DNA of 64,000 nt from Methylomonas koyamae (GTDB taxonomy: Bacteria > Pseudomonadota > Gammaproteobacteria > Methylococcales > Methylomonadaceae): NCBI RefSeq assembly GCF_006483455.1, contig NZ_PPPU01000027.1, forward strand, positions 1 to 64,000, read 5' to 3'. The notes beneath the pieces were generated by a model. That model did not search any database and was not told where the DNA came from. It worked only from the letters and a program-made list of their open reading frames with translations. Shown piece by piece: positions 8,756-64,000 of this stretch. The first letter of the stretch is position 1. Every line of letters begins with the position of its first letter. A program made the translations under genes and the position numbers.

Positions 8756-9286
8756 TTAAAGTCTTTTAGCTAATTGATGAAGCTGACCTCTGACGGAACC
8801 GTCGATGACTTTGTCGCCGGCTTTGGCGAGAATGCCTCCAATTAACGATTTGTCGACAGACACTGACGCGTTGACTTTTTTATGCAAAAACTTCTCGAGC
8901 ATGGCGACGTACTTGCCTTGCTCGGTTTTTGTCAACGGGTATGCGCTTTGCAGCTCGACATTGACGTAACCTTCGTCGTCGGCCCTATACTGTTCGAACA
9001 TTACCGAAATCTGAGGCAACAAAGGCAATTTGTCGTTCTCGATCAACACCTTGAGAAGATTCTTGGCTTCATCGTGAATTTGATCCTGGCAAATATCCAG
9101 GACCAACTGCGCTGTATTCTGTTTGTTGACTCTGGGGTTAGCGACGATTCCAGCCAAAGCTTCGTCCTGAACCAGCAAAGCCAAAAACGTCAAAGAATCG
9201 GACCAGTTTTGGGCAGCATTGGCTTCTTTGGCCCGCTTGAAAGCGGCCTGAGCATAAGGTCTTGCTAATGTCGATATTTCAGCCAT
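8756..9286 (-). CDS. atpH: F1Fo ATP synthase subunit delta
   Basis: Delta joins the F1 crown to the b-subunit peripheral stalk. The 176-residue protein starts MAEISTLARPYAQAAFKRA, the family N-terminus. Its C-terminal part has the conserved VDKSLIGGILAKAGDKVIDGSVRGQL region. Only three bases separate it from the atpF stop, consistent with coupled translation. Confidence 0.97.
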   Translation of the reverse strand: MAEISTLARPYAQAAFKRAKEANAAQNWSDSLTFLALLVQDEALAGIVANPRVNKQNTAQLVLDICQDQIHDEAKNLLKVLIENDKLPLLPQISVMFEQYRADDEGYVNVELQSAYPLTKTEQGKYVAMLEKFLHKKVNASVSVDKSLIGGILAKAGDKVIDGSVRGQLHQLAKRL

Positions 9287-9289
9287 CGC

Positions 9290-9763
9290 TTAACCCAATT
9301 GTTCCGCCGCTTTACTGATAATGTCTTGGTGCTTGGCCTTGTCGACTTCTTCTTTCAAAATCTGCTCGGCGGCACGCAAAGCCAAAGAGGAAACTTCTTT
9401 ACGCAAACTTTCCTTGGCGTGCAACATTTCCTGTTCGATTTGAGCTTTCGCGGCTTCCAACAGGCGCTCGCCTTCTTTCTTGGCTTGTTCCTTGGCTTCT
9501 TCAACTAATTGGTTGGCGCGCTTTTGCGCGGCGCTGACGATCTCGGCCGACTGCTCCTTGGCTTCCTTCAAAACGCTTTTAGCTTTCTTTTCAGCCAGTT
9601 TAATTTCTTCCTGACCCTTCTCAGCCGCAGCCAAACCTTCCGCAATTTTGGTTTTGCGCTCTTCCAGAGCAGCAATGATCGGCGGCCAGACATACTTCAT
9701 GGTGAACCACACCAGAAGCGTGAAAGTGATCATCTGCCCGATCAGAGTAGCATTGATACTCAT
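9290..9763 (-). CDS. atpF: F1Fo ATP synthase subunit b
   Basis: Subunit b forms the peripheral stalk. The 157-residue protein has one N-terminal membrane helix ([20 protein letters not shown]) and the conserved KYVWPPI turn. The rest is a long, highly charged Ala/Glu/Lys-rich coiled coil. Length and arrangement are typical of proteobacterial AtpF. It lies between atpE (102 bp upstream) and atpH. Confidence 0.97.
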
Positions 9764-9864
9764 TGATGCTTTCCTCGTAATGCCGTTGTTAGTCTATCTG
9801 TCCGCAGTCGTACATAAACGACACGCAAAAGGCTCACGCCTTAGGTTACAGATGGTTGGGTTAA

Positions 9865-11344
<1,480 letters not shown>

Positions 11345-11602
11345 AAAACTCTCCTCGACCGTTAAGCGCGCCGATTATATCCAGCCATCGCGGTTTACGC
11401 AAGGTAAGGCCGCTACACGACTCAAAGCTAAGGCTTTGAAGCACAATCAAGAAATTGATACCACAGCGGCAATTCGTTTAACGCCCCGACAACAAAAGCA
11501 ATAGCCGTGCCAGCGGCAAAATCAATAGTATTTCTAAGGTTTGTTGAAAAAACCGTGTTGGAGATGCGACAAACCGACAAGGGCTTGCGACAACCTGCCG
11601 CA

Positions 11603-12457
11603 TCAGTGAATTTTCCCAATGATACCTTCCAACTCTTCCAGGCTGGTGTAATTGATGATCAACTTGCCCTTGCCGCCGGCCTGATGATTGATCTCGACCT
11701 TGGCGCCGGTGCGTTCCGACAGCTCGCGCTGCAAACGCAAGGTATCGGGGTCGATTCTCTTCGCCTGAGCCGCCGGCTTTTCATCGTGCATCTCACGCAC
11801 CAGTTTTTCCACCGCCCGCACGCTCAAGCTTTGCTTGACCGCTTTATGAGCAATCTCGACCTGTTTCGATTCGTCCAAACCCAGCAAGGCGCGAGCATGA
11901 CCCATTTCCAGCAAGCCTTTGCCCAGCATGGTTTTGACTTCGCCGGCCAATTCCAACAAGCGCAATAAATTAGTTACCGTGGTGCGCGACTTGCCGACCG
12001 CTTCGGCGATCTGTTGATGCGTCAGCTCGAACTCGTCCTGCAAGCGGTGCAAGGCTTCGGCCTCTTCCAGCGCATTCAAATCCTCGCGTTGGATGTTTTC
12101 GATCAAAGCAATCGCCATTACCGAACGGTCGTCGATGTCTTTCACCAGCACCGGCACTTCGGCCAGCTCCGCCAACTGAGCAGCGCGCCAACGCCGCTCG
12201 CCGGCGATGATTTCGTATTTCTCGCCAGCGATTTTGCGCACGACAATCGGTTGAATGATGCCTTGCGCAGCAATCGAATCGGACAGCTCTTTCAGCTTTT
12301 CGGGATCCATATCTTTACGCGGCTGGTACTTGCCGCGTTGCAGAAATTCGATCGGCAACTTTTGGGTGTCGTGGGTTTTTTCCGGAGCCGGGGCCGAAAC
12401 ATCGCCGAGCAACTCGCTCAAACCTCGACCCAAACCGCGTTTTTTCGGATTCATCAT
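11603..12457 (-). CDS. parB: Chromosome-partitioning protein ParB
   Basis: ParB is a CTPase clamp that loads at parS and segregates the origin region with ParA. The 284-residue protein starts MMNPKKRGLGRGLSELLGD, the typical chromosomal ParB N-terminus. The CTP-binding GERRWRAAQLA box follows at about residues 76-86, with ENIQREDLNALEEA. The helix-turn-helix is LTHQQIAEAVGKSRTTVTNLLRLL. The start overlaps the parA stop (ATGA). I found no perfect parS palindrome while reading the window. Confidence 0.97.
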   Translation of the reverse strand: MMNPKKRGLGRGLSELLGDVSAPAPEKTHDTQKLPIEFLQRGKYQPRKDMDPEKLKELSDSIAAQGIIQPIVVRKIAGEKYEIIAGERRWRAAQLAELAEVPVLVKDIDDRSVMAIALIENIQREDLNALEEAEALHRLQDEFELTHQQIAEAVGKSRTTVTNLLRLLELAGEVKTMLGKGLLEMGHARALLGLDESKQVEIAHKAVKQSLSVRAVEKLVREMHDEKPAAQAKRIDPDTLRLQRELSERTGAKVEINHQAGGKGKLIINYTSLEELEGIIGKIH

Positions 12458-13227
12458 TTGGCTGCTTTGTGTTTGCGGATCAATTCGCCGGCCAGCGCGA
12501 TATAGGCGACCGCACCGCGCGACGCTTTATCGTAAGCCAAGACCGGCACACCGTGGCTGGGTGCCTCGGCCAGGCGGATATTCCGGGGAATCGTGGTCCG
12601 GAACACTTTGTCGCCGAAATATTCGATCAATTGGTCAGACACGTCCTTGCCCAATCGGCTCCGGCTATCGACCATCGTTCTGAGAATGCCTTCCAAATGC
12701 AAACCCGGATTCACGGTATCGCGAATATTGCGCAAGGTCGACATCAACGACGACAAGCCTTCCAAAGAGTAATACTCGCATTGCATCGGAATCAAAACGC
12801 TGTGGGCGGCGACCATGGCGTTCAGCGTCAGCATATTCAACGACGGCGGACAGTCGATCAAAATGTAATCGTACTGGTCCTTGACCGGCAACAAGGCATC
12901 GGCCAGACGCCGCTCCCGATGCTGGGCCGTCATCAATTGCACTTCGGCGGCGGTCAGATCGGCATTACCCGGAATCAAATCGAACCCCAAATCCTTGTTC
13001 TTGACGATGATGCCCGAGACCGGCACCTCTTCCAGCAACAACTCGCAACTCGAATATTCCAGCTCGTCCTTGTTGACGCCGCAGCCCATCGCGGCATTGC
13101 CCTGCGGATCGAGATCGATCAACAGAATCTTGCGCTTGGTCGCCGCCAACGCCGCCGCCAGATTGACGCTGGTGGTAGTCTTGCCGACACCGCCTTTTTG
13201 GTTAGTGATCGCGATTATCTTAGCCAT
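12454..13227 (-). CDS. parA: Chromosome-partitioning ATPase ParA
   Basis: ParA is the nucleoid-bound ATPase partner of ParB. The 257-residue protein starts MAKIIAITNQKGGVGKTTTSVNLAAALA, whose deviant Walker A is KGGVGKTT. It also has IDLDPQGNAAMG and DYILIDCPPSLNMLTLNAM. Its short N-terminus without an HTH domain marks the chromosomal (Soj-like) type. It overlaps rsmG by eight bases and parB by four. Confidence 0.97.
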   Translation of the reverse strand: MAKIIAITNQKGGVGKTTTSVNLAAALAATKRKILLIDLDPQGNAAMGCGVNKDELEYSSCELLLEEVPVSGIIVKNKDLGFDLIPGNADLTAAEVQLMTAQHRERRLADALLPVKDQYDYILIDCPPSLNMLTLNAMVAAHSVLIPMQCEYYSLEGLSSLMSTLRNIRDTVNPGLHLEGILRTMVDSRSRLGKDVSDQLIEYFGDKVFRTTIPRNIRLAEAPSHGVPVLAYDKASRGAVAYIALAGELIRKHKAAK

Positions 13228-54313: not shown

Positions 54314-54653
54314 TTCAACGCCTCCCGGCCGACGATTATCGATTGCCAATCCCGGCGCAGCGCGCCCGAACCGGCATTAATTTCGCAGTAGCATAGCCGC
54401 TAATTGGAGAAATGAAACGCTTTTGCACAGGCCCGGCTGTAGTGGCTGTGCCGTGGGCCGATTGCGGTCCCGCCAGGCGTTTTTCATGCAGCGGAATTGA
54501 AGGGATCGCCCTACATATTTCCTTACGTTTGGTGAGGATTGGGCTATAATTTAGACATAGATCACAAAAAGCCGGGGCAGGGAGCTGGCAATCGCGCCGC
54601 AAGCTGCCGGTACACGCTTTCGAGGGATCGCTCTGCGGTAAAGGGGGGTGAAC
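54314..54653. other. Divergent intergenic region with candidate promoter of the GRE operon
   Basis: This 340-bp gap separates the alpha-2-macroglobulin gene and the GRE operon. A perfect -10 box TATAAT lies at 54545-54550 on the plus strand; the -35 region 17 bp upstream (CTTACG) is weak, which may indicate an activator. Transcription from it would give a leader of roughly 95 bases. I see no clear FNR palindrome (TTGAT-N4-ATCAA). An AAGGGGGG ribosome site precedes the GRE start. Confidence 0.45.
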
Positions 54654-57626
54654 ATGTCTGTTCCATATCCAGCAGCCGACGGCGGTATTTCGGTAGAGCT
54701 CGGCAAGAGTTCCGCAGGACCGGCATCCGAGTCCGGCAAAGTCGATTTATTTCCCATCGCCAATCCAGACTTCCGGAAAATTAAAACCCTGAAGGACTTG
54801 GCGCTCCGCAGCATCACGCTGGCCCAATTCCCGGTCGTCAGCGCCTGGCGCGAAAAGCTGTTTTCGCCGGCAGGTACGCCGGAAATCTGCGATGAATTGC
54901 CGCGCCTATTAACCGAATTTCTGCGCCGGCCCGAAAGCCAAACCTTGCCGCCTTACACCCGGCGCGCCCAAGCGCTACGCCACATCTTCGTCAACAAAAC
55001 CGCAATCGTGCATGCCGACGACTTGCTGCCCGGCCAAACTACCACCAGCTTCGTCGGCCCAGTGGTTTACGCCGATACCATAGGCTATTGCATTTGGCCG
55101 GAACTGAAAACCGTCACCACCCGCGCCCAAAATCCGTTCAAGATTCGCCCGGAAGTGGCCGAGCGACTAAACCGGGAGATATTTCCATTCTGGCTGGAGC
55201 AAAAGCCAATCCAGGAACTGGCCCGTTACAGCGATTACGATAGCGCCGCCTATGAGAACCGCGACCGGATCGGCGGCAATTATCCGGAGTCGATCGATCC
55301 GCCCTTGCGTAAAAAAGCCGGAGAAACCCCGAAAGCCCAGGAATTGATGGAAAGGGTAGCGTTCTTCCTGTCCGATAAGGCCACCTGCGTTTCGCATACC
55401 GTGCCGGATTTCGAACGGGTGTTGAAATACGGCTTCGATGGCTTGATCGAACGCGCCAAACAGGATATCGCCAGCGGCGCGGCCGCTACGCCGGACCAAG
55501 TCGAGTTTCTACAGGGCGTGATTGCGGTATACGAAGGCGCCAAACTATACGCCCAGCACTTGGCCGAGGCTGCCGACCGCGCCGGCAATCAAGTGCTGGC
55601 GACCATCTGCCGGAAGATTCCGGCGCAGCCTGCCGAAACCTTGCACGAAGCGCTGGCCGCGGTCTGGATTTGTTACCACCTGCTGTTGCAGGAAAACACC
55701 AATTTCGGTTTTTCCATCGGCCGCCTGGACCAAATCCTCAACCCCTTCTATCTGGCCGATTGGCAAAAACTGGATAACCCTCAAGCGCAGGAGGACTATA
55801 CCCGGCGGGCGGTGGAACTGGTCAGCCATTTTTTCCTGCATTGTTCCGACCACGTCCCGTTGTCCACCTCCGGTTCGGAAACGCTGTTTGCCGGCAGCGG
55901 CTCCAATCAGGCGTTGACTGTGGGCGGCACCCGTTACGAAAACGGCCAGGTCGTCGATGCGGTCAACGACATGACCTACATCATCCTCAAGGCCACCGAG
56001 ATCCTGGCTATCCGCGACCCGAACGTGCACGCCCGCTATCATCGGGATGTGCATCACCGCGACGCCCAAGGCAATTCGCTGCCCGTTGAAGTAATGGACC
56101 CGTATCTGAAACGGATTTGCCAGGTCAATATCCTGACCCGAGCCACGCCGGCGTTGCATGGCGACGCCGCTGTGGTGCCGGCCATGGCCAGTTACTACGC
56201 TGCCCATGCCGGTATCGGTTCGGAAGAAGCCTTGGCCGATGCCTACGATTACACCTCCATCGGATGCATCGAAGAAAACGCCGCGCACAAACATTACGGC
56301 AACACCGGCTCGACTTTGATGGTGTTGCCGGCAGTATTGGAGCTGGCTTTGTACGGCGGCAAACATCGCAGCGACGGCGTGGCGCCAAAATCGCCCAACC
56401 TGTTTTACGGCGACGCCCGTTACACCACGCCGCCGCTGCTCCAAATCGATAGCATGCCAGCCTTTATCGAGGCCTTTAGGTTTCAACTGAACGAGATGGC
56501 CCGCCACGTCGTGCAATGCAACAATTACTTCGGCCGTTTCTACGAACAATCCCGGCAGTCGCCGTTTTTGTCCGGCTTGTTTACCGGGCCGACCAATACC
56601 CCGGACAGTGACGGCGCCAGTTTTCGCGATGTCTCCGCCGGCGGCGCCAAATACAACTCAGCGGGGATTGCCGTGATCGGTTTGGCCGACGTGATCGACT
56701 CGTTTTGCGTGTTGGACACCCTGGTATTCGGCGGCAAAGTCACGGCCGGCGAATTGTTGGCGGCAATGCAGGCCGATTTCGACACCGGCAGCTTGCAGCC
56801 CAAAAGTTTCTGGGCTTCATTGCGGGAGCGGGTACAAAACTGGCTGCATCCGGAAGATGCGCCATTGCCATTACCGACGTTAAGCGCCGACCGCCTGAAT
56901 CAAATCAAACAGATGATCCGGCTGGCACCCAAGTACGGTGCCGGCGTCGATCAAACTCCCGGCGGCATTTACAACAACGCTACCGCCGTCAAATACACCC
57001 ACCTGCTGACCGAAATGTTGCAAGAGGTATTTGCCCAATACCGCACCCATCGCGGCGGGCGCTATCTGCCCGGTTACTGGAGCATGACCAACCACGCCGG
57101 TTTTGGGATGTTGACCAAGGCCACACCCAACGGCCGGCGCAGCGGCGAATCCTTCGCCAGCGGCATCACGCCCTGCCCTGGTGTGGTCAAAGCCAACGGC
57201 GAGCCGGTCAATTTGCTGGATCACATGCTGTCGGTCACGTCGGTGAATGCCAATACCGTGCAGAACGGTTATACCTATAACCTCAGTCTAACCACCCGCG
57301 ATCGCGGCCATTTCGAAGAGGACACCGAATTGTTCTCGCGTTACATGAAGGCCTTTGCCGACCAAAACGGCGTGCTGGTGCAAATGTGCGTGTCGTCGAT
57401 CAACGATCTGGTCGCCGCCGACCGCGCCGCCGCCGCCGCCGGGGAATCCGGGGCCGGCGAGGCCGAACATAAAGCGCTGGAGCCGTTCAAGGATCTAATG
57501 ATACGCGTGGCCGGCTACTCGGCGTATTTCGTCACGCTGAGTCCGCAGATGCGCAAAGAGATTATTCAACGCGCCAATTTCGGGCTGGACACCGGCGCCG
57601 AGCAACATACGCTCAACGCAATTTAA
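54654..57626 (+). CDS. Glycyl radical enzyme of the PFL/dehydratase family
   Basis: GREs use a glycyl radical and a thiyl radical for difficult anaerobic reactions. The ATG at 54654 follows AAGGGGGG, giving 990 residues, long against the 750-850 usual for the family. The active-site Cys538 lies in SIGCIEENA, with Glu540 two residues later. This Cys-x-Glu pattern occurs in dehydratases and C-X lyases (glycerol dehydratase, CutC), whereas PFL has Cys-Cys. The radical Gly954 is in RVAGYSAYF near the C-terminus. Other landmarks are SHTVPDFERVLKYGFDGL and STSGSETLFAGSG. About 60 N-terminal residues precede the core. No microcompartment shell genes are nearby. The activase is two genes downstream. 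The substrate is unknown, and the product is oxygen-sensitive by family. Confidence 0.92.
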   Translation: MSVPYPAADGGISVELGKSSAGPASESGKVDLFPIANPDFRKIKTLKDLALRSITLAQFPVVSAWREKLFSPAGTPEICDELPRLLTEFLRRPESQTLPPYTRRAQALRHIFVNKTAIVHADDLLPGQTTTSFVGPVVYADTIGYCIWPELKTVTTRAQNPFKIRPEVAERLNREIFPFWLEQKPIQELARYSDYDSAAYENRDRIGGNYPESIDPPLRKKAGETPKAQELMERVAFFLSDKATCVSHTVPDFERVLKYGFDGLIERAKQDIASGAAATPDQVEFLQGVIAVYEGAKLYAQHLAEAADRAGNQVLATICRKIPAQPAETLHEALAAVWICYHLLLQENTNFGFSIGRLDQILNPFYLADWQKLDNPQAQEDYTRRAVELVSHFFLHCSDHVPLSTSGSETLFAGSGSNQALTVGGTRYENGQVVDAVNDMTYIILKATEILAIRDPNVHARYHRDVHHRDAQGNSLPVEVMDPYLKRICQVNILTRATPALHGDAAVVPAMASYYAAHAGIGSEEALADAYDYTSIGCIEENAAHKHYGNTGSTLMVLPAVLELALYGGKHRSDGVAPKSPNLFYGDARYTTPPLLQIDSMPAFIEAFRFQLNEMARHVVQCNNYFGRFYEQSRQSPFLSGLFTGPTNTPDSDGASFRDVSAGGAKYNSAGIAVIGLADVIDSFCVLDTLVFGGKVTAGELLAAMQADFDTGSLQPKSFWASLRERVQNWLHPEDAPLPLPTLSADRLNQIKQMIRLAPKYGAGVDQTPGGIYNNATAVKYTHLLTEMLQEVFAQYRTHRGGRYLPGYWSMTNHAGFGMLTKATPNGRRSGESFASGITPCPGVVKANGEPVNLLDHMLSVTSVNANTVQNGYTYNLSLTTRDRGHFEEDTELFSRYMKAFADQNGVLVQMCVSSINDLVAADRAAAAAGESGAGEAEHKALEPFKDLMIRVAGYSAYFVTLSPQMRKEIIQRANFGLDTGAEQHTLNAI

Positions 57627-57639
57627 GAGGAGAACTGTC

Positions 57640-58293
57640 ATGCATGCCGGATTTCCCTGTTTATTACCGAATTTACAAAAAACCTTGCAGTTGGGTGCCA
57701 ATGCCGCGATTGATGCCGGCGAACTGCCGGCTGTTTTGGATAAAGCCCAAGGCCGCTTGTTGGCCAGCGGCATGGCTGTCGCGCTGCGTTTGGGGTTTGG
57801 CTATTTGCTGCGCGATTGCCAGCTGGATGCCGCGCAAGCGGCCAAGGCCAATGCCTTTTTCGAGGAAAACTTCATCATCATTGATCCCCTGGCGCCTGGC
57901 GGCCAACGCTACTATCAGGGCAAGTTTCTGATCCGCACCAGCCGGCGCGGCGACGACATGAACGTGTTGCTCAAGTTCTGTCCCAATCCCGATGCCCTGT
58001 ACATCGACACGCCGTTCGGCCGGGCCTTGAATTCGCTGGCACTGGTTGCTACAGAGGTGCTGGACGAAAACCAGGCCGACCGGATCGAGCACGATCCCAG
58101 TAAAGTCGATCTGGTAGTGAAATTTAAAGACGTGCAATCCATCATCGGCCTGCTGGGCCGTGGCGGGGTCGACATCGTCGGTTTGCTGCTGGAAAACCTG
58201 GTGCAACTGACCGGCCACGTCGGCCATCTGTTTAAATTGGGCGCTATCGCCACGGACATCCAGTTGTCCCTGGATATTCCCAAAGCGGCCTAG
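57640..58293 (+). CDS. Uncharacterised protein with SCP2-like C-terminal region
   Basis: The 217-residue protein follows GAGGAG by an ideal distance and lies 13 bp after the GRE gene. Residues about 60-135 include FFEENFIIIDPLAPGGQRYYQGKFLIR, a repeated Gly-Arg turn and DALYIDTPFGRALNSLAL. Residues about 150-215 (KVDLVVKFKDVQSIIGLL, then NLVQLTGHVGHLFKLGAI) resemble the end of sterol carrier protein 2 domains, where a hydrophobic strand is followed by a G-x-h-x-x-h-h-x-L segment. I infer lipid or hydrophobic-substrate binding with moderate to low confidence. No signal peptide is visible. Confidence 0.5.
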   Translation: MHAGFPCLLPNLQKTLQLGANAAIDAGELPAVLDKAQGRLLASGMAVALRLGFGYLLRDCQLDAAQAAKANAFFEENFIIIDPLAPGGQRYYQGKFLIRTSRRGDDMNVLLKFCPNPDALYIDTPFGRALNSLALVATEVLDENQADRIEHDPSKVDLVVKFKDVQSIIGLLGRGGVDIVGLLLENLVQLTGHVGHLFKLGAIATDIQLSLDIPKAA

Positions 58294-58308
58294 CATTGGA
58301 GAGCGGAG

Positions 58309-59205
58309 ATGGACCACAAAGCTTTCATCTTCGATATCAAACGCAACACCAGCGAGGACGGGCCGGGTATCCGCACCACGGTGTTTTTCAAAGGCTGTCC
58401 GCTGAGTTGCAGTTGGTGTCAAAATCCCGAGGGTATATCGCCGGGGCCGTCCCTGTCCTTTCGTGCCGAATTATGCCGGCCGGACCAGTGCGAGCGGCCT
58501 TGTCTTAAAGCTTGCCGATTAAAAGCCTTAACGCTGCAAGACCAACAACTGCGGCTCGATCGAGAACGTTGCGACCAATGCGGACGCTGCGCGGCGGTAT
58601 GTTCGCAGCATGCCTTGGAGCTGGTGGGCCAATGGCTGAGTGTGGACGAGCTGTTTTATCGAGTCGCCATCGATAAACCGTTTTTCGACGCTACCGGCGG
58701 CGGCGTCACGGCGTCCGGCGGCGAATGCACCACGCACATGAATTTTCTGCACCATTTTTTTAAAAAACTGAAAGCCGCCGGTATTCATACCGCCATCGAA
58801 ACCAACGGCATGTTCAATTTCGGCCGTTTTACCCGCCTGTTGCTGCCATGGCTGGATTTGGTCTATTTCGACTTAAAACTGATCGACGAAGCCGCCAGCA
58901 TCCGCCACACCGGCCATTCCAACCGGCCGATTCTGGACAATTTGTTGCGTCTGACCGAGTGCGCCGAGATTCCGGTCAAAGTCCGTATTCCATTAATCCC
59001 CAACATTACCGCCACCGACGAGAATCTGCGCGGCATCGCCCGGTTCTTGCGGGAGCACCGGATCGAGCAGGTCAGCGCCCTGCCTTATAACCCCTTATGG
59101 CTGGACAAGCTGCAGCGCTTTGGGATCGATACCGACTATCGGTACGCCGCCTTCATGAGCGATGCCGAGATCGAACGCTGCGTCGATAGCTTGCAGGCCT
59201 GTTGA
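58309..59205 (+). CDS. Glycyl radical enzyme activating enzyme (radical SAM)
   Basis: This 298-residue radical SAM enzyme would install the glycyl radical on the GRE. The SAM cluster motif is C30-x3-C34-x2-C37 in KGCPLSCSWCQNP. Two further four-Cys sets follow: C56, C61, C65, C69 and C88, C91, C94, C98 (CDQCGRCAAVC). They predict two extra 4Fe-4S clusters, as in activases of dehydratase-type GREs rather than the short PFL activase. The G-G-E-like motif is TASGGE. It is in the same operon, with GGAGA before the ATG. Confidence 0.95.
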   Translation: MDHKAFIFDIKRNTSEDGPGIRTTVFFKGCPLSCSWCQNPEGISPGPSLSFRAELCRPDQCERPCLKACRLKALTLQDQQLRLDRERCDQCGRCAAVCSQHALELVGQWLSVDELFYRVAIDKPFFDATGGGVTASGGECTTHMNFLHHFFKKLKAAGIHTAIETNGMFNFGRFTRLLLPWLDLVYFDLKLIDEAASIRHTGHSNRPILDNLLRLTECAEIPVKVRIPLIPNITATDENLRGIARFLREHRIEQVSALPYNPLWLDKLQRFGIDTDYRYAAFMSDAEIERCVDSLQAC

Positions 59206-59222
59206 TTTCAAGGAGAGTCGTC

Positions 59223-60281
59223 ATGCAAACCGATTTCCATCATGCCGTGACTTATGTCGCCGCCCGCACCGCCGGCTTCACTCACCAGGATGCCGACATC
59301 GTTGCTTATTCGGCGCAATACGTGGACGACGCCGTTAGCGATGGCCTGGTCCATTTCGACAACAACGCCTTTTACGCCAGAATTCATTCCTCGCACAAAA
59401 GCGCCGACATCGGCAATTTGAACAACGACCAAAACCTGATGATCTGGTTGCCGTTCCATTTTCTGCCGGGCAACGGCGGCAAGGGGCAGGGTCAGGACCC
59501 GGACGGTACGTTTATCCAAAAAATCGTCTGTCTGCCCGACAGCCCGCCGGCCAAGGAAATGGTGCAGGCAGCGGTCGACGATAAAGGCAAACCGTACAGT
59601 CTGCATCGCTTGGGAATTGCCTTGCATGTGTATGCCGACACCTGGTCGCACCAGGGTTTTGCCGGGGTGATACACGAAATCAACGAAGTGGAACACGCGC
59701 GGGAGTTGAAAAGCTCCGGCATGTACAGCAAACAGCTGCAGAATGTATTGGAGGATATCCTGGACGATGTGATTCCGCCGCTGGGCCATGGCCGGGCCAA
59801 AGATTTTCCGGACCTGCCGTTCTTGCATTGGCAGTATCGGAACGGTCGCGGTGCTTGGATCGTTCGCGACAACCCGACGGATTTTTGCGCGGCTGCGGAC
59901 GCGATGTGCAAAGTGATGCAACAGTATCTGGGCAAGGCGCAGAATGGATTGCCGGCCGCCGACAAAACGCTGCTGGCAAAAATATTTCTTGAGTTAAAGG
60001 TCAAGGACGACAAAGCCCGCCATCGGCAATGGCTGGAAATCGTCAAGAACGGCTTCAAGGGCGAGAAATTCAGCTTCGGTACGGCGGAGATTAGTTATGC
60101 CGCCGAAGGCGTCAATTCCTGGAAGGAAAAAGCGCTGGGCAGCAGTTGGGACATGCGGGTACATAAATACACGCCGGCATTTTTGAGTAGTCACTGGAAG
60201 CTGTTTCACGACGCGCTGCAACTGCATCGTTTGACCGTACTGCACGACATTTTGCCCAAGTACGGCATTTGCGCCGGCTAA
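59223..60281 (+). CDS. DUF6765 family protein, putative metal-dependent hydrolase
   Basis: The ATG at 59223 follows AAGGAGAG, giving 352 residues (MQTDFHHAVTYVAARTAGF). The N-terminal TDFHHAVTYVAARTAGF and IVAYSAQYVDDA fit what I recall of DUF6765. The segment LHVYADTWSHQGFAG (His135, Asp139, His143) recalls the His-x3-Asp-x3-His helix of zinc-dependent phospholipase C and S1/P1 nuclease folds. Early FHH and a DD pair could complete a metal site. The hydrolase idea is inference. It has no signal peptide. It lies between the activase (17 bp upstream) and the lipase in the GRE operon. Confidence 0.65.
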   Translation: MQTDFHHAVTYVAARTAGFTHQDADIVAYSAQYVDDAVSDGLVHFDNNAFYARIHSSHKSADIGNLNNDQNLMIWLPFHFLPGNGGKGQGQDPDGTFIQKIVCLPDSPPAKEMVQAAVDDKGKPYSLHRLGIALHVYADTWSHQGFAGVIHEINEVEHARELKSSGMYSKQLQNVLEDILDDVIPPLGHGRAKDFPDLPFLHWQYRNGRGAWIVRDNPTDFCAAADAMCKVMQQYLGKAQNGLPAADKTLLAKIFLELKVKDDKARHRQWLEIVKNGFKGEKFSFGTAEISYAAEGVNSWKEKALGSSWDMRVHKYTPAFLSSHWKLFHDALQLHRLTVLHDILPKYGICAG

Positions 60282-60303
60282 GCCGGCAAGCGGGAGAGTC
60301 GCC

Positions 60304-61167
60304 ATGAACCCCAACACCGCAGCCGATCTACCCTGCCGGACTTTATACCCCATCGTGCTGTTGCACGGTATCGGTTACCGCGATGACATGTTGATGCTGA
60401 ACTCCTGGGGCCGAATTCCGAAAACATTGGAAGCCGCCGGTGCCAGGGTGTTTCAAGGCGGACTGGATGCCTGGAACAGCCACGAAAATAGTGCGCTGGC
60501 ACTGAAGCCGAATATTGAGCAAATACTTAGCGAAACCGGCGCGGCAAAGGTCAATATCGTCGCCCATTCCAAAGGCGGCCTGGAAGCGCGCTACCTAATC
60601 TCCAAACTGGATATGGCCGATAAGGTGGCCAGCTTGACCACGGTTTGCACCCCTCATCACGGCTCGGCCGTGGCGGATTTGGTGGCCGGTGACATTCCCG
60701 ATACCGATAAACTGCTGAGCATAAATTTCTTCAAACGCCTGGCGCAGCGATTGGGATTCGGCGCGATGGACATCCTGGCCAGAATCACCGGTGACAAAAG
60801 CCCGCAAGCCGGCATGGCCATAAGGCAACTGACGCGTCACTATCTGGCGGAATTCAATCGGCAAGTGCCGGACATGTCGGGCGTTTATTACCAAAGCTAC
60901 GGCACGCTGATGCGCCGGGCGATCGACGATCCGGTGTTTGCCGCCACCCATGTGTTGCTGAAACGGATAGAAGGCGACAACGACGGCATGGTCTCCACGC
61001 AATCCTGCCAATGGGGCAGATTTCGCGGGCTGATCGGTGATAGCAACCCGGACAAAGGCTTGTCGCACGGCGACTTGGTGGACTATCGCGGCGTACTGCT
61101 GACGCATTTCGATATTCCGGCGGTGTATCTCGACATCGTCAAAGATCTAAAACAGCAAGGCTTTTAA
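60304..61167 (+). CDS. Alpha/beta-hydrolase, triacylglycerol lipase-like
   Basis: The 287-residue protein has the lipase oxyanion motif VLLHGIGY (residues 18-25) and the nucleophile Ser89 in VAHSKGGLEARYL. The segment TTVCTPHHGSAVADL is also typical of the Pseudomonas/Burkholderia-like lipase group (TxxxPHxGs). A candidate acid is in GDNDGMVS and the His is likely in GLSHGDLVDY. There is no signal peptide, so it acts inside the cell, unlike secreted lipases. A GGGAGAG ribosome site precedes the ATG. It is fifth in the GRE operon. Confidence 0.85.
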   Translation: MNPNTAADLPCRTLYPIVLLHGIGYRDDMLMLNSWGRIPKTLEAAGARVFQGGLDAWNSHENSALALKPNIEQILSETGAAKVNIVAHSKGGLEARYLISKLDMADKVASLTTVCTPHHGSAVADLVAGDIPDTDKLLSINFFKRLAQRLGFGAMDILARITGDKSPQAGMAIRQLTRHYLAEFNRQVPDMSGVYYQSYGTLMRRAIDDPVFAATHVLLKRIEGDNDGMVSTQSCQWGRFRGLIGDSNPDKGLSHGDLVDYRGVLLTHFDIPAVYLDIVKDLKQQGF

Positions 61168-61223
61168 GCTGGGCTTATACGTCCGGCCTAAGCCAAAAAT
61201 ATAACAAATACAGGGGAAGGACC

Positions 61224-63617
61224 ATGAACAACTATCTCGATGTCGCCAATTTCCCAACCGCGTCAGAGCAAGAACAGCAAGCACTGGCAAGCGCTCTCGA
61301 CGCCATTATCAACAACGATCTCCAAGTCGGCGCACTGCCTATGCTCGGCAGCTATCGCAAGATTTTGGGCGATAACCTGCGCCGGGATGAGTGGGACGGT
61401 ATCCATGAAAAGCTGCTGACCCTATTCAAGTGCGGTACTAGTACGCCGCTGGACGGGCCGATGATAGGTGTGTCGATGTCCATCCGCGACAGCGATTATT
61501 TCAAGGAAACCGCCAAGCAGCACGGCGAAAACCGTTCGATGCTGGCGCATCTGGAATGGATGGCGACCTTGTGGAATGTTACTTACGCCAGTACCGGTTT
61601 ATGGATGGGTAAGACGTTCGAGCCGGTGGCAAAAGAGGTGTTTGCCGCCAAATGCGGCCACGATCCGGTCGCGATCTTTAACTACGATCCGGAAACGACT
61701 CGCATTGGCCGGAATTTTTTCCGCGAACCGGACGATCCTAATTTCATTCAAAGCTTGGGTATGCCGGTGCTGACCCAGTTCTGGAATCTGCGGGATCGGC
61801 CGTTGGGTACCAATGCGCAGGGCTTTGATAGCCAATTGCTTGCGCAAAATTTGGCCAAGGAAAAAGCCATCCCGTATGTAAAAACCGGCGGAATTTTCCT
61901 GGCGATGCCTGGCAGGTCCGTGGTTGGAGAGATGAACGGCAAAGCCGTTTATCAGCTTAATTACCGTTGGCACGATTTGCATCCGGCGTTCCCGATGACG
62001 CGGCTAATCGACGAGTTGGTGCAGATCGAGGACGGCGTCTATTTGGGGCAGTTGGTCATGGCCACTCATCATTACAGCTTGGGTACGCTGCAGATACCTC
62101 TGTTCGGTGATCATCCGCCGGAATGGGAACTGGGCGAAGCCTATACCGGCGACAATTCGGTCGATTATGGCTACCAAAATAATGGTTTCTTTTTGATGAT
62201 AGATACCGCACGGGCCAGGGAAGCGTTTGCGGACGAAGCCTTCCCCAATTTACGGCCTCGGCCCGGCGAACGCGGCTGGAAGGAGCTTGGCTACGATAAA
62301 CCGGTGTCTACCATACCGGGCGCTGCACCGCATGGCGTGGATTGGGCGACTGGTTGGCGCGACGATCCCGAGTTGCAGCGTAAATTCACCACATTTTGCC
62401 TGGAAGCATCGCCAAAAAGTGACGATGGCGATGTGCGCGAATTACTACAGCCGGGCGAATCCATTTTGCAAATGTTGCAACGCCAGCAGGGCAAAATTTC
62501 CGCCGCCAGCGGTTTCGACGATCACCTACGGCATTTTGAAGTGTTGAATCGATTGTTTCGCGCCGGCGTTGCTCCCGGCATTGTGGATGGCGTGTTTCAA
62601 GGGCAGGGTAGAGGTTACAGCACCCGGTTCGATGCCCCGGAAGCGCGCGATTGGTATGGGCAAAGCGATCCGTGCAGCGGCTTTGACTATTACCACGGTG
62701 CCACGCTGAATTTGCATTGGGGCTTTGGCGACAGTTTTATCGCCAATATCGCCCGCTCATTGCAGGAACACAGCATGATTCCGGCCGCGCTGGCCGACAA
62801 ACTGCAAACCGATCCGCGCGCGCCAAATTTGCTGAATGCGGTGTGGGCCAATATCGGCCGCTTTATTTTTCCTTGGGCCGGCAAGTCTTTCGAGCGTATC
62901 AGCGGCCGCAAATTGAGTATGCTGCTGGACGAAAGCGACGACTTGGCGCAACGCTATCCGGAGCGGGTAGCCGAACTAAAAGCCCATCCGGCCAGCTTTC
63001 CGCATTACGCCTTGGTCGAGAAAAACCGCGAACACTATTGGCAGCAGCCGGGCGTTTACGCCGAACATCTGCGCAGCGGCAGTTGGGACCGGGGTATGTC
63101 GAAAACCGACAAGGCGTTCTGGGAACGGGAAGCCGCCGCGCATTGGGTATTTGGCAATAACATCCAGGACTCGCGCATCCTGCCCACCGATGCCCTGTTC
63201 CGGGTCTTGGATATGAACTACCACCCGCCGCTACCCTCCATCCAGCAATTGGCCGATGCCGGCCCCTCGCCGTTCGTCAGGCAGGGCTACAGCTTTTTGG
63301 GGGTGGACGACAGGCCGTCGATCTTGCCGATGAACAACGGCCCGGATAAGGCCAAGCAAGTGTTCCAGTTCCATTACCGCTACCCGCTGATCGGCGGACC
63401 GGCCCCGATCGGCACCTGTCTGGACGAACTGGTGGAAATTGCCGAAGGTTTGTTCCTGGGCCAACTGATTTACTCCACCGCCTTGCTGGTGCCGTTTCAC
63501 TCGGCCACCGATCCGGCGGAATACCAATACCAGCTATTCGGCTATTTCCTGTTGCTGGATAACACCTGGGAACAACACCGGCAGGCGATAGGGTTTGATA
63601 TCAATACGGCCGGTTGA
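61224..63617 (+). CDS. Large protein with an internal duplication, function unknown
   Basis: The 797-residue product follows AGGGGAAGGA. I do not recognise the family. Two diverged copies of one unit can be seen, about residues 70-335 and 440-785. Matching parts are STGLWMGKTFEPVA with IFPWAGKSFERIS, GKAVYQLNYRWH with AKQVFQFHYRYP, LIDELVQIEDGVYLGQLVMAT with CLDELVEIAEGLFLGQLIYST, and NNGFFLMIDTAR with LFGYFLLLDNTW. No signal peptide or membrane segment is seen, and aromatic residues are frequent. Last in the GRE operon, it may bind or process the same hydrophobic substrate (inference). Confidence 0.8.
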   Translation: MNNYLDVANFPTASEQEQQALASALDAIINNDLQVGALPMLGSYRKILGDNLRRDEWDGIHEKLLTLFKCGTSTPLDGPMIGVSMSIRDSDYFKETAKQHGENRSMLAHLEWMATLWNVTYASTGLWMGKTFEPVAKEVFAAKCGHDPVAIFNYDPETTRIGRNFFREPDDPNFIQSLGMPVLTQFWNLRDRPLGTNAQGFDSQLLAQNLAKEKAIPYVKTGGIFLAMPGRSVVGEMNGKAVYQLNYRWHDLHPAFPMTRLIDELVQIEDGVYLGQLVMATHHYSLGTLQIPLFGDHPPEWELGEAYTGDNSVDYGYQNNGFFLMIDTARAREAFADEAFPNLRPRPGERGWKELGYDKPVSTIPGAAPHGVDWATGWRDDPELQRKFTTFCLEASPKSDDGDVRELLQPGESILQMLQRQQGKISAASGFDDHLRHFEVLNRLFRAGVAPGIVDGVFQGQGRGYSTRFDAPEARDWYGQSDPCSGFDYYHGATLNLHWGFGDSFIANIARSLQEHSMIPAALADKLQTDPRAPNLLNAVWANIGRFIFPWAGKSFERISGRKLSMLLDESDDLAQRYPERVAELKAHPASFPHYALVEKNREHYWQQPGVYAEHLRSGSWDRGMSKTDKAFWEREAAAHWVFGNNIQDSRILPTDALFRVLDMNYHPPLPSIQQLADAGPSPFVRQGYSFLGVDDRPSILPMNNGPDKAKQVFQFHYRYPLIGGPAPIGTCLDELVEIAEGLFLGQLIYSTALLVPFHSATDPAEYQYQLFGYFLLLDNTWEQHRQAIGFDINTAG

Positions 63618-63685: not shown

Positions 63686-64000
63686 TTACCGTTCTGCTTC
63701 GTTATCCAGTGGCAACGGCACCTGCGATAAATCCAGCTTGCCCTTGAAGGCTTGTTGGCTCAATGCGCCGTAGAGGTTTTCGAGATCGGTCAGGCTTTTT
63801 TGGTAGCGGGATTTGAGGCTTTCGACTTTTTCGACGATGGCGGCGAACTTTTGTCGATCTTCTGTTTCAGGCCGGATGACCTGCAAAGGCCGCAATGTTT
63901 CGATGTTGATATTCGCTCTTGCTGCTTCAGGCGCTCTTGCCCTGAGTACGGGTTTCCAAAATCTAAGCAGAAATTCAATGAAAACAGCTTCCGTTATTTC
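63686..64000 (-). CDS. hsdS: Type I restriction-modification specificity subunit HsdS, C-terminal part (cut by window edge)
   Basis: HsdS gives sequence recognition to type I restriction-modification enzymes. The frame is open to the window end and reads FIEFLLRFWKPVLRARAPEAARANINIETLRPLQVIRPE, then FAAIVEKVESLKSRYQKSLTDL (the conserved coiled-coil spacer) and LENLYGALSQQAFKGKLDL, which is the typical HsdS C-terminus. About 104 residues are seen; the target-recognition domains lie beyond the window. It converges with the GRE operon. hsdM or hsdR should be in the next region if the system is complete. Confidence 0.88.
   Translation of the reverse strand, partial: EITEAVFIEFLLRFWKPVLRARAPEAARANINIETLRPLQVIRPETEDRQKFAAIVEKVESLKSRYQKSLTDLENLYGALSQQAFKGKLDLSQVPLPLDNEAER

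Follow-up and report, generated by a model that had tools for sequence, protein, structure and literature searches.

What does a glycyl radical enzyme (GRE) act on when its gene is set among genes for lipid-type proteins? The question is raised by a run of six genes near one end of a 64,000-nucleotide stretch (the window) of the Methylomonas koyamae contig NZ_PPPU01000027.1. The open reading frames (ORFs) listed for the window confirmed the short-gapped, plus-strand run at 54654-63617 that a first-pass annotation had described, in the order GRE, SCP2-like protein, activase, DUF6765 protein, lipase and a duplicated protein of 797 residues, with strong ribosome-binding sites 5' of the GRE (ATG 54654), the SCP2-like gene and the DUF6765 gene (ATG 59223). 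The proposal of a GRE system so far undescribed, to which an SCP2-like carrier and a duplicated protein belong, stood up to analysis: the combination recurs across phyla, and the GRE reached the cut-off of none of the curated GRE family models that we tried. Our tentative reading, possible but short of probable, is that of a conserved, horizontally spread anaerobic module that processes a protein-carried lipid, with the GRE performing a radical 1,2-elimination.

The GRE belongs to the PFL-like glycyl radical enzyme superfamily. It scored 330.7 bits against PF02901 (cut-off 24.3) and 18.9 bits against the separate PF01228 model, below the cut-off of 22.2, and it carries the active-site motif GCIE and the glycyl loop RVAGYSAYF (RVxGYxxxF). 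Cys538, Glu540 and Gly954, named at first reading, are correct when counted from ATG 54654 (540, 542 and 956 from GTG 54648), and the Cys-x-Glu pair and the loop are kept in 15 aligned GRE sequences. The GRE fell below the cut-offs for the PFL2/glycerol dehydratase subfamily (TIGR01774, 319.4 bits against 678.2), pyruvate formate-lyase (TIGR01255, 29.8 against 994.2), the choline trimethylamine-lyase CutC (TIGR04394, 191.5 against 1050), trans-4-hydroxyproline dehydratase (HypD; NF043068, 143.1 against 1100), the sulfopropanediol dehydratases HpsG/HpfG (NF048011 and NF048009, 197.3 and 173.6 against 1000) and the arylacetate decarboxylases HPAD and IAD (NF033715, 63 against 1150; NF033718, 120 against 1100). 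This set held no isethionate lyase or X-succinate synthase model; on these enzymes bear the weaker PDB matches 7kq3 (E 3e-30) and 4pkc (E 5e-16). None of seven comparison GREs, four from the same group and three others, passed an equivalog model, and two of the three others passed TIGR01774.

A quick tree with 38 rows placed all 28 members of this group, which had been collected by GRE similarity, together (SH-aLRT 100) and apart from CutC, PflD, HypD, YbiW, a pdu-linked GRE and PflB; the program warned of long branches meeting, and the rows contained no benzylsuccinate synthase, isethionate lyase or decarboxylase. Tree and models together set the enzyme apart from the reference GREs used. The group comprises a clade of about 945-1000 residues in Pseudomonadota, Nitrospirota, Planctomycetota (anammox bacteria), Acidobacteriota and Desulfobacterota, and a set of about 800-850 residues in Bacillota, Spirochaetota, Fibrobacterota, Lentisphaerota and Acidobacteriota. 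SHTxP, Cys-x-Glu, WSMTNH and the glycyl loop are common to 11 aligned group rows. The closest named relatives are from Methylomonas (93% identity to Methylomonas sp. DH-1), and plasmid-borne GREs among the matches listed are 23-26% identical. At L113:4450-7038 (L numbers denote loci), the GRE gene reads as two ORFs.

To follow the gene combination beyond Methylomonas, genome contigs were scanned, giving 64 loci, and Desulfobacterota regions were added via the 797-residue protein. We counted 55 loci with at least 1.5 kb on either side of the GRE, scoring other genes as present anywhere in the fetched stretch; presence was partly assigned by hand, and contig-end loci were dropped (e.g. L010, L013, L014, L025, L027, L028, L030-L032, L036, L038, L043, L046 and L055-L057). 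The SCP2-like gene stands beside the GRE in 54 of the 55, in many phyla. The exception, L053, holds half of a GRE that is divided between two sites on a single chromosome record; the other half (L049) has the SCP2-like gene. The activase is present in 52 loci, the 797-residue protein in 39 and DUF6765 in 31; seven loci entered via the 797-residue protein itself and carry it by selection, and without them the figures are 47/48 for the SCP2-like gene, 46/48, 32/48 and 28/48. The 55 loci are not independent, since many from Nitrosomonas and Methylomonas are closely related. Linkage persists in GRE subgroups about 30-34% identical, and because the combination recurs across phyla it is no chance neighbourhood. 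Joint conservation of the GRE with the SCP2-like and duplicated proteins thus extends far beyond Methylomonas. Conservation of all six genes together fared less well: SCP2-like protein, activase, 797-residue protein and DUF6765 recur, and the intact lipase is confined to Methylomonas. The SCP2-like protein, rather than the lipase, is the defining companion of the GRE.

Hosts include Nitrosomonas, Nitrospira, methanotrophs, anammox bacteria and Gallionella, and cultured representatives exist in Methylomonas, Nitrosomonas oligotropha and N. aestuarii. Where complete, the Nitrosomonas order is 797-residue protein, GRE, SCP2-like protein, activase, DUF6765. Distribution is patchy within the genus, the SCP2-like gene occurring in 6 of 12 genomes grouped as own, same species or same genus. 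In a family survey of 151 genomes the 797-residue protein occurred in seven, all within the eight with an SCP2-like match. Among 297 Desulfobacterota genomes it occurred in ten: beside a GRE in six (L109, L111, L113-L116), with a GRE three to five genes off in L108, at contig edges in two (L079, L112) and with no nearby GRE in L110. In L108, which has a short-type GRE, the six genes follow each other as in the window, except that only an N-terminal remnant of the lipase is left. We propose that the module has spread horizontally. Viral carriage was considered and rejected, as 0 of 33 pattern stretches in viral contigs encode a relative.

Two further kinds of neighbour were seen. A family with the N-terminus MVQ[VIM]D[LI]PA (L033:9306-9872, L039:13840-14451, L047:9337-9903, L059:9242-9976) adjoins the GRE or the GRE-SCP2 pair in Magnetococcales, two anammox bacteria and Terriglobia, at loci lacking DUF6765; the one member scanned had no Pfam match. 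Genes that look bacteriohemerythrin-like by eye lie within the fetched stretches of L016, L034, L037 and L051, and may be linked to oxygen handling.

Predicted structure gave the 217-residue protein an SCP2 fold, with UbiJ-SCP2 as the best solved match in Foldseek, and the initial SCP2-like assignment thus holds at the level of the modelled fold. Sequence searches found no Pfam or NCBIfam match at E up to 1 and nothing useful in the PDB. Across the family, the Pfam SCP2 profile matched none of 23 members scanned and an NCBIfam scan returned nothing; the shorter partner in L061 reached 18.5 bits against the SCP2 cut-off of 21.3.

The duplication first noticed in the 797-residue protein is significant, its halves sharing 38% identity over 101 columns (E 5.6e-15, half against half). 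No Pfam or NCBIfam match was found at E up to 1, the Pfam sequence link gave nothing useful, and no PDB entry matched by sequence. Plain Foldseek with the predicted model (pTM 0.50) returned nothing significant; in a second look the model best matched 4mve, a solved GXWXG/DUF4334 chain, and the protein may therefore resemble GXWXG/DUF4334 barrels. Profile comparison with GXWXG/DUF4334 was not significant. True GXWXG/DUF4334 genes adjoin the GRE in L062 and the DUF6765-GRE pair in L064, both distant GRE clusters, and this family occurred in 1 of 75 gammaproteobacterial genomes, one other than that of the window. In L110, the sole GRE-less case on a long contig within the Desulfobacterota set, the 797-residue-type gene (9223-13007) is interrupted by an inserted, largely masked ORF, with no GRE in the 19 kb fetched.

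The DUF6765 protein matches PF20551 (Table 1). Its conserved His/Asp set, H13, H14, D42, D43, H86, H142, D146, H150 and H196 (numbered from TTG 59202), includes a core HxxxDxxxH. Zinc-dependent phospholipase C (PF00882) matched 3 of 17 members weakly (best E 0.0098), and no PDB entry matched by sequence. DUF6765 loci outside the module (L098-L102) have no common neighbour, save that L101 and L102 resemble each other; in these two, from Methylomonas-family genomes without the module, a longer DUF6765 lies among genes that look type VI secretion-like by eye, possibly a different use of the family. In a Clostridia metagenome-assembled genome (MAG), an acetoacetate-decarboxylase-like gene (PF06314; L061:8141-8818) lies directly upstream of the DUF6765-GRE pair.

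The lipase belongs with the Family I serine lipases: it is an alpha/beta hydrolase with AHSKGG (AHSxG), and its relatives in the PDB, led by 1cvl (E 5e-23), are triacylglycerol lipases. No signal peptide was seen by eye, in keeping with the cytosolic location assigned at first. As a constituent of the conserved system it was rejected: an intact copy occurs in 4 of the 55 loci, all Methylomonas, plus the window itself, and the remnant in L108 (Desulfobacterota) lies between the DUF6765 and 797-residue genes. L047 has a second alpha/beta hydrolase in its cluster.

The activase scored 260 bits against TIGR02494 (cut-off 174). Its CPLSCSWC motif (CxxxCxxC) and eight further Cys are as expected for the three clusters originally attributed to it. 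Of 27 activases compared beside that of the window, eight (L017, L019, L021, L022, L029, L034, L037, L052) lack any Cys over the 75 residues that follow CxxxCxxC, and the ferredoxin-like auxiliary domain is therefore taken to be lost in them; their GREs are 66-71% identical to that of the window. These eight form a natural experiment on the role of the extra clusters.

Upstream sequences bear on when the module is expressed. The FNR consensus box is TTGATNNNNATCAA, and a perfect copy precedes the operon in five Nitrosomonas loci (L018, L019, L021, L041, L053). These account for five of the six perfect matches in 279 kb of 15 Nitrosomonas-type loci, two of which are labelled only Proteobacteria, and several of the loci with a box are closely related. 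The other loci (795 kb) hold four perfect boxes, none before the operon. In a set of 35 loci, four perfect boxes were observed against 0.03 expected from mononucleotide shuffles, and four one-mismatch boxes against 0.63. Such FNR-type boxes make low-oxygen expression likely in part of Nitrosomonas, as judged from the promoters. Five Methylomonas promoters have a weaker, imperfect block in common, with two mismatches to the consensus in L002-L004; for the window, the best match has three mismatches and sits at another place. A sigma-70 promoter scan gave nothing above chance.

Taken together, these data suggest a candidate route. A phosphoesterase (DUF6765 here, a calcineurin-like or PhoD-like enzyme in some loci) would cut off a phosphate or head group, and in Methylomonas the cytosolic lipase would additionally take off an acyl chain. 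The SCP2-like protein and the duplicated GXWXG-like barrel would then hold and present the resulting hydrophobic alcohol. Once the activase had installed the glycyl radical, the GRE would catalyze an O2-independent radical 1,2-elimination of the dehydratase/lyase type, yielding an aldehyde or ketone that may pass to ordinary dehydrogenases. Oxidoreductase neighbours include an Fe-alcohol dehydrogenase two genes past the activase in L065, a locus that also has a sub-cut-off PHP-domain match, and a GMC oxidoreductase directly 5' of the GRE in L113. Phosphoester cleavage, lipid substrate, 1,2-elimination and step order are all inferred. A hydrophobic substrate is plausible: one partner has the predicted fold of a lipid carrier, another a carrier-like barrel, and others look like phosphoesterases. 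On a similarly tentative footing, which we would call conceivable rather than probable, the enzymes may constitute a GRE class that acts on lipids delivered by dedicated carriers (SCP2 plus GXWXG-type barrel), with phospholipid-derived alcohols undergoing radical elimination at low O2.

Several observations weigh against this lipid reading. The label dehydratase-type, applied to the GRE at the outset, held for Cys-x-Glu and for a His, present in the group, that aligns with His164 of glycerol dehydratase, and failed at the position of Asp447, which is Gly or Ser; both residues have roles in glycerol/diol dehydratase. The pair that marks 1,2-diol dehydratase GREs is thus incomplete, and a 1,2-diol reading is not compelled. 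The Foldseek matches of the SCP2-like model were all weaker than E 0.001, and the shared fold is no proof of lipid binding, the top solved match being UbiJ, which works in quinone synthesis. DUF6765 is absent genome-wide in 13 of 19 module genomes searched and lies elsewhere in the genome in 6; the 797-residue protein is absent genome-wide in 14 of 23, chosen mostly for a locus lacking it, and lies elsewhere in 9. Most loci, Methylomonas included, have no perfect FNR box upstream. Finally, one pattern that counts in favour of the reading is limited. Calcineurin-like or PhoD-like metallophosphoesterases, listed with uneven sensitivity by a motif search of all predicted ORFs plus L047 by eye, are found in 7 of the 24 loci that lack DUF6765 and in none of the 31 that have it (p 0.0017; 0.014 once near-identical loci were collapsed). 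The same data both prompted this exclusion and served to test it, and neither enzyme shows in 17 of the 55 loci, the four from Nitrospirota included; the pattern is thus no more than a lead.

The SCP2-like and barrel proteins might instead be structural or assembly partners, a UbiJ-like scaffold or stabilisers resembling small subunits, of a GRE whose substrate is small and soluble. Some GREs, such as HPAD and benzylsuccinate synthase, do have extra small subunits, and the fold match to UbiJ-SCP2 and an SCP2-like gene as constant as the activase point the same way. Such a scheme leaves the lipase, DUF6765, the GXWXG-like barrel and the other clustered phosphoesterases unexplained, and we consider it somewhat unlikely. 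Alternatively, the GRE could serve biosynthesis, making or modifying a specialised membrane lipid (such as a vinyl-ether or deoxygenated glycerolipid) independently of O2 in bacteria of oxic-anoxic boundaries. The hosts listed above, which live on few carbon sources, fit this idea, and clustering of the neighbours found no further gene family in more than ten loci, so that no dedicated catabolic operon is evident. The patchy distribution within the genus is unlike that of an essential membrane lipid, however, and the hydrolases point towards breakdown; on balance this is unlikely.

A hopanoid polyol (bacteriohopanepolyol) as substrate would match a sterol-carrier-like protein, and HpnH scored above its cut-off in 9 of 22 module genomes (Methylomonas, Crenothrix, three Nitrosomonas, two anammox bacteria and two Terriglobia). 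The other 13, including Nitrospirota, Chromatiaceae, Sedimenticola and the isolate Ruminiclostridium sufflavum, have no HpnH above cut-off; apart from the isolate these are mostly MAGs, which may be incomplete. By these gene counts the hopanoid version appears strongly weakened, and we regard it as highly improbable. Several GRE homologues carry the automatic names formate acetyltransferase or pyruvate formate lyase family protein, as would be expected if the enzyme were an ordinary pyruvate formate-lyase or one of the known dehydratases (glycerol, choline, propanediol, hydroxyproline, sulfonate) and its neighbours were incidental. Scores far below the equivalog cut-offs, a GCIE active site where the PflB alignment row has ACC, with no Cys-Cys, the separate tree group and the recurrence of the same neighbours across phyla make this barely credible.

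The features of the locus are collected in Table 1. Translation of the GRE most likely starts at the ATG, with AAAGGGGGG just 5' of it and the Met kept in 15 of 15 aligned sequences, rather than at GTG 54648. Likewise, AAGGAGAG precedes ATG 59223, the most likely start of DUF6765, rather than TTG 59202. An alpha-2-macroglobulin-like gene on the minus strand flanks the module at one end, and directly downstream, at 63686-64000 on the minus strand, lies a fragment resembling a type I restriction-modification specificity subunit, both as read by eye from translations.

Table 1. Coordinates of the GRE module and its putative promoter element in the window.
Feature	Position	Strand	Basis or remark
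Promoter block, possible degenerate CRP/FNR-type site (low confidence)	54552..54565	+	5 aligned Methylomonas upstream regions
GRE, ~990 aa	54654..57626	+	PF02901 E 2.8e-98; alternative start GTG 54648
SCP2-like protein, 217 aa	57640..58293	+	Predicted fold
GRE-activating radical SAM enzyme with two extra ferredoxin-type clusters	58309..59205	+	TIGR02494
DUF6765 protein, possible cytosolic zinc-phospholipase-C-like hydrolase	59223..60281	+	PF20551 E 4e-104
Serine lipase (alpha/beta hydrolase, AHSKGG)	60304..61167	+	PDB relatives are triacylglycerol lipases
797-aa duplicated protein, modelled as two GXWXG/DUF4334-like (calycin-type) barrels	61224..63617	+	Predicted fold

To our knowledge, the characterised GRE families that we tested act on small soluble compounds. 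If the lipid reading is true, radical chemistry would reach membrane-derived substrates through a GRE family coupled to lipid carriers, and an anaerobic route for lipids would be open to Nitrosomonas, Nitrospira, Methylomonas and anammox bacteria. Nitrifiers, methanotrophs and iron oxidisers that are nominally aerobic, together with anammox bacteria and strict anaerobes, could then cut or remodel alcohols from phospholipids once oxygen runs out, and functions would be suggested for DUF6765, GXWXG/DUF4334 and the unnamed duplicated family. Because some hosts are cultured isolates, the module is directly testable.

Searches of the open-access literature, outside which most subscription journals lie, listed no account of a GRE with SCP2, DUF6765 or GXWXG proteins. 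What is new here is the SCP2-like protein as main companion, the likeness of the modelled 797-residue protein to GXWXG/DUF4334 barrels and the spread over many phyla. Set against known systems, the nearest comparison is with the B12-independent glycerol/propanediol dehydratases, which have the GRE domain, Cys-x-Glu, the His164 equivalent and the glycyl radical loop in common with the window GRE. The latter differs in the Gly or Ser at the Asp447 position, in the WSMTNH motif and in its setting, with lipid-type partners and without shell genes. The absence of shell genes, noted at first reading, was confirmed across the 4.54 Mb genome, where this GRE is the only PF02901 protein and the bacterial microcompartment shell protein PF00936 has no match; of 21 module genomes, 2 have PF00936, in each case on a contig that, judged by its length, is not the one with the GRE. 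CutC likewise has a dedicated activase and Cys-x-Glu, but its alignment row lacks the histidine, the window GRE falls far short of the CutC model, and its genome has no microcompartment genes. Compared with UbiJ, sterol carrier protein 2 and the alkylsulfatase C-terminal domain, the SCP2-like protein adds N-terminal helices, and the 23 members scanned escape the Pfam SCP2 profile, the L061 partner staying below cut-off. DUF6765 may resemble zinc-dependent phospholipase C in its His/Asp pattern and, by eye, lacks a secretion signal. The GXWXG/DUF4334 protein Tcur_1030 (4mve) is the best structural match of the 797-residue model, and true members of its family stand beside the GRE in L062 and beside the DUF6765-GRE pair in L064; the 797-residue family differs in being duplicated, or split over two genes.

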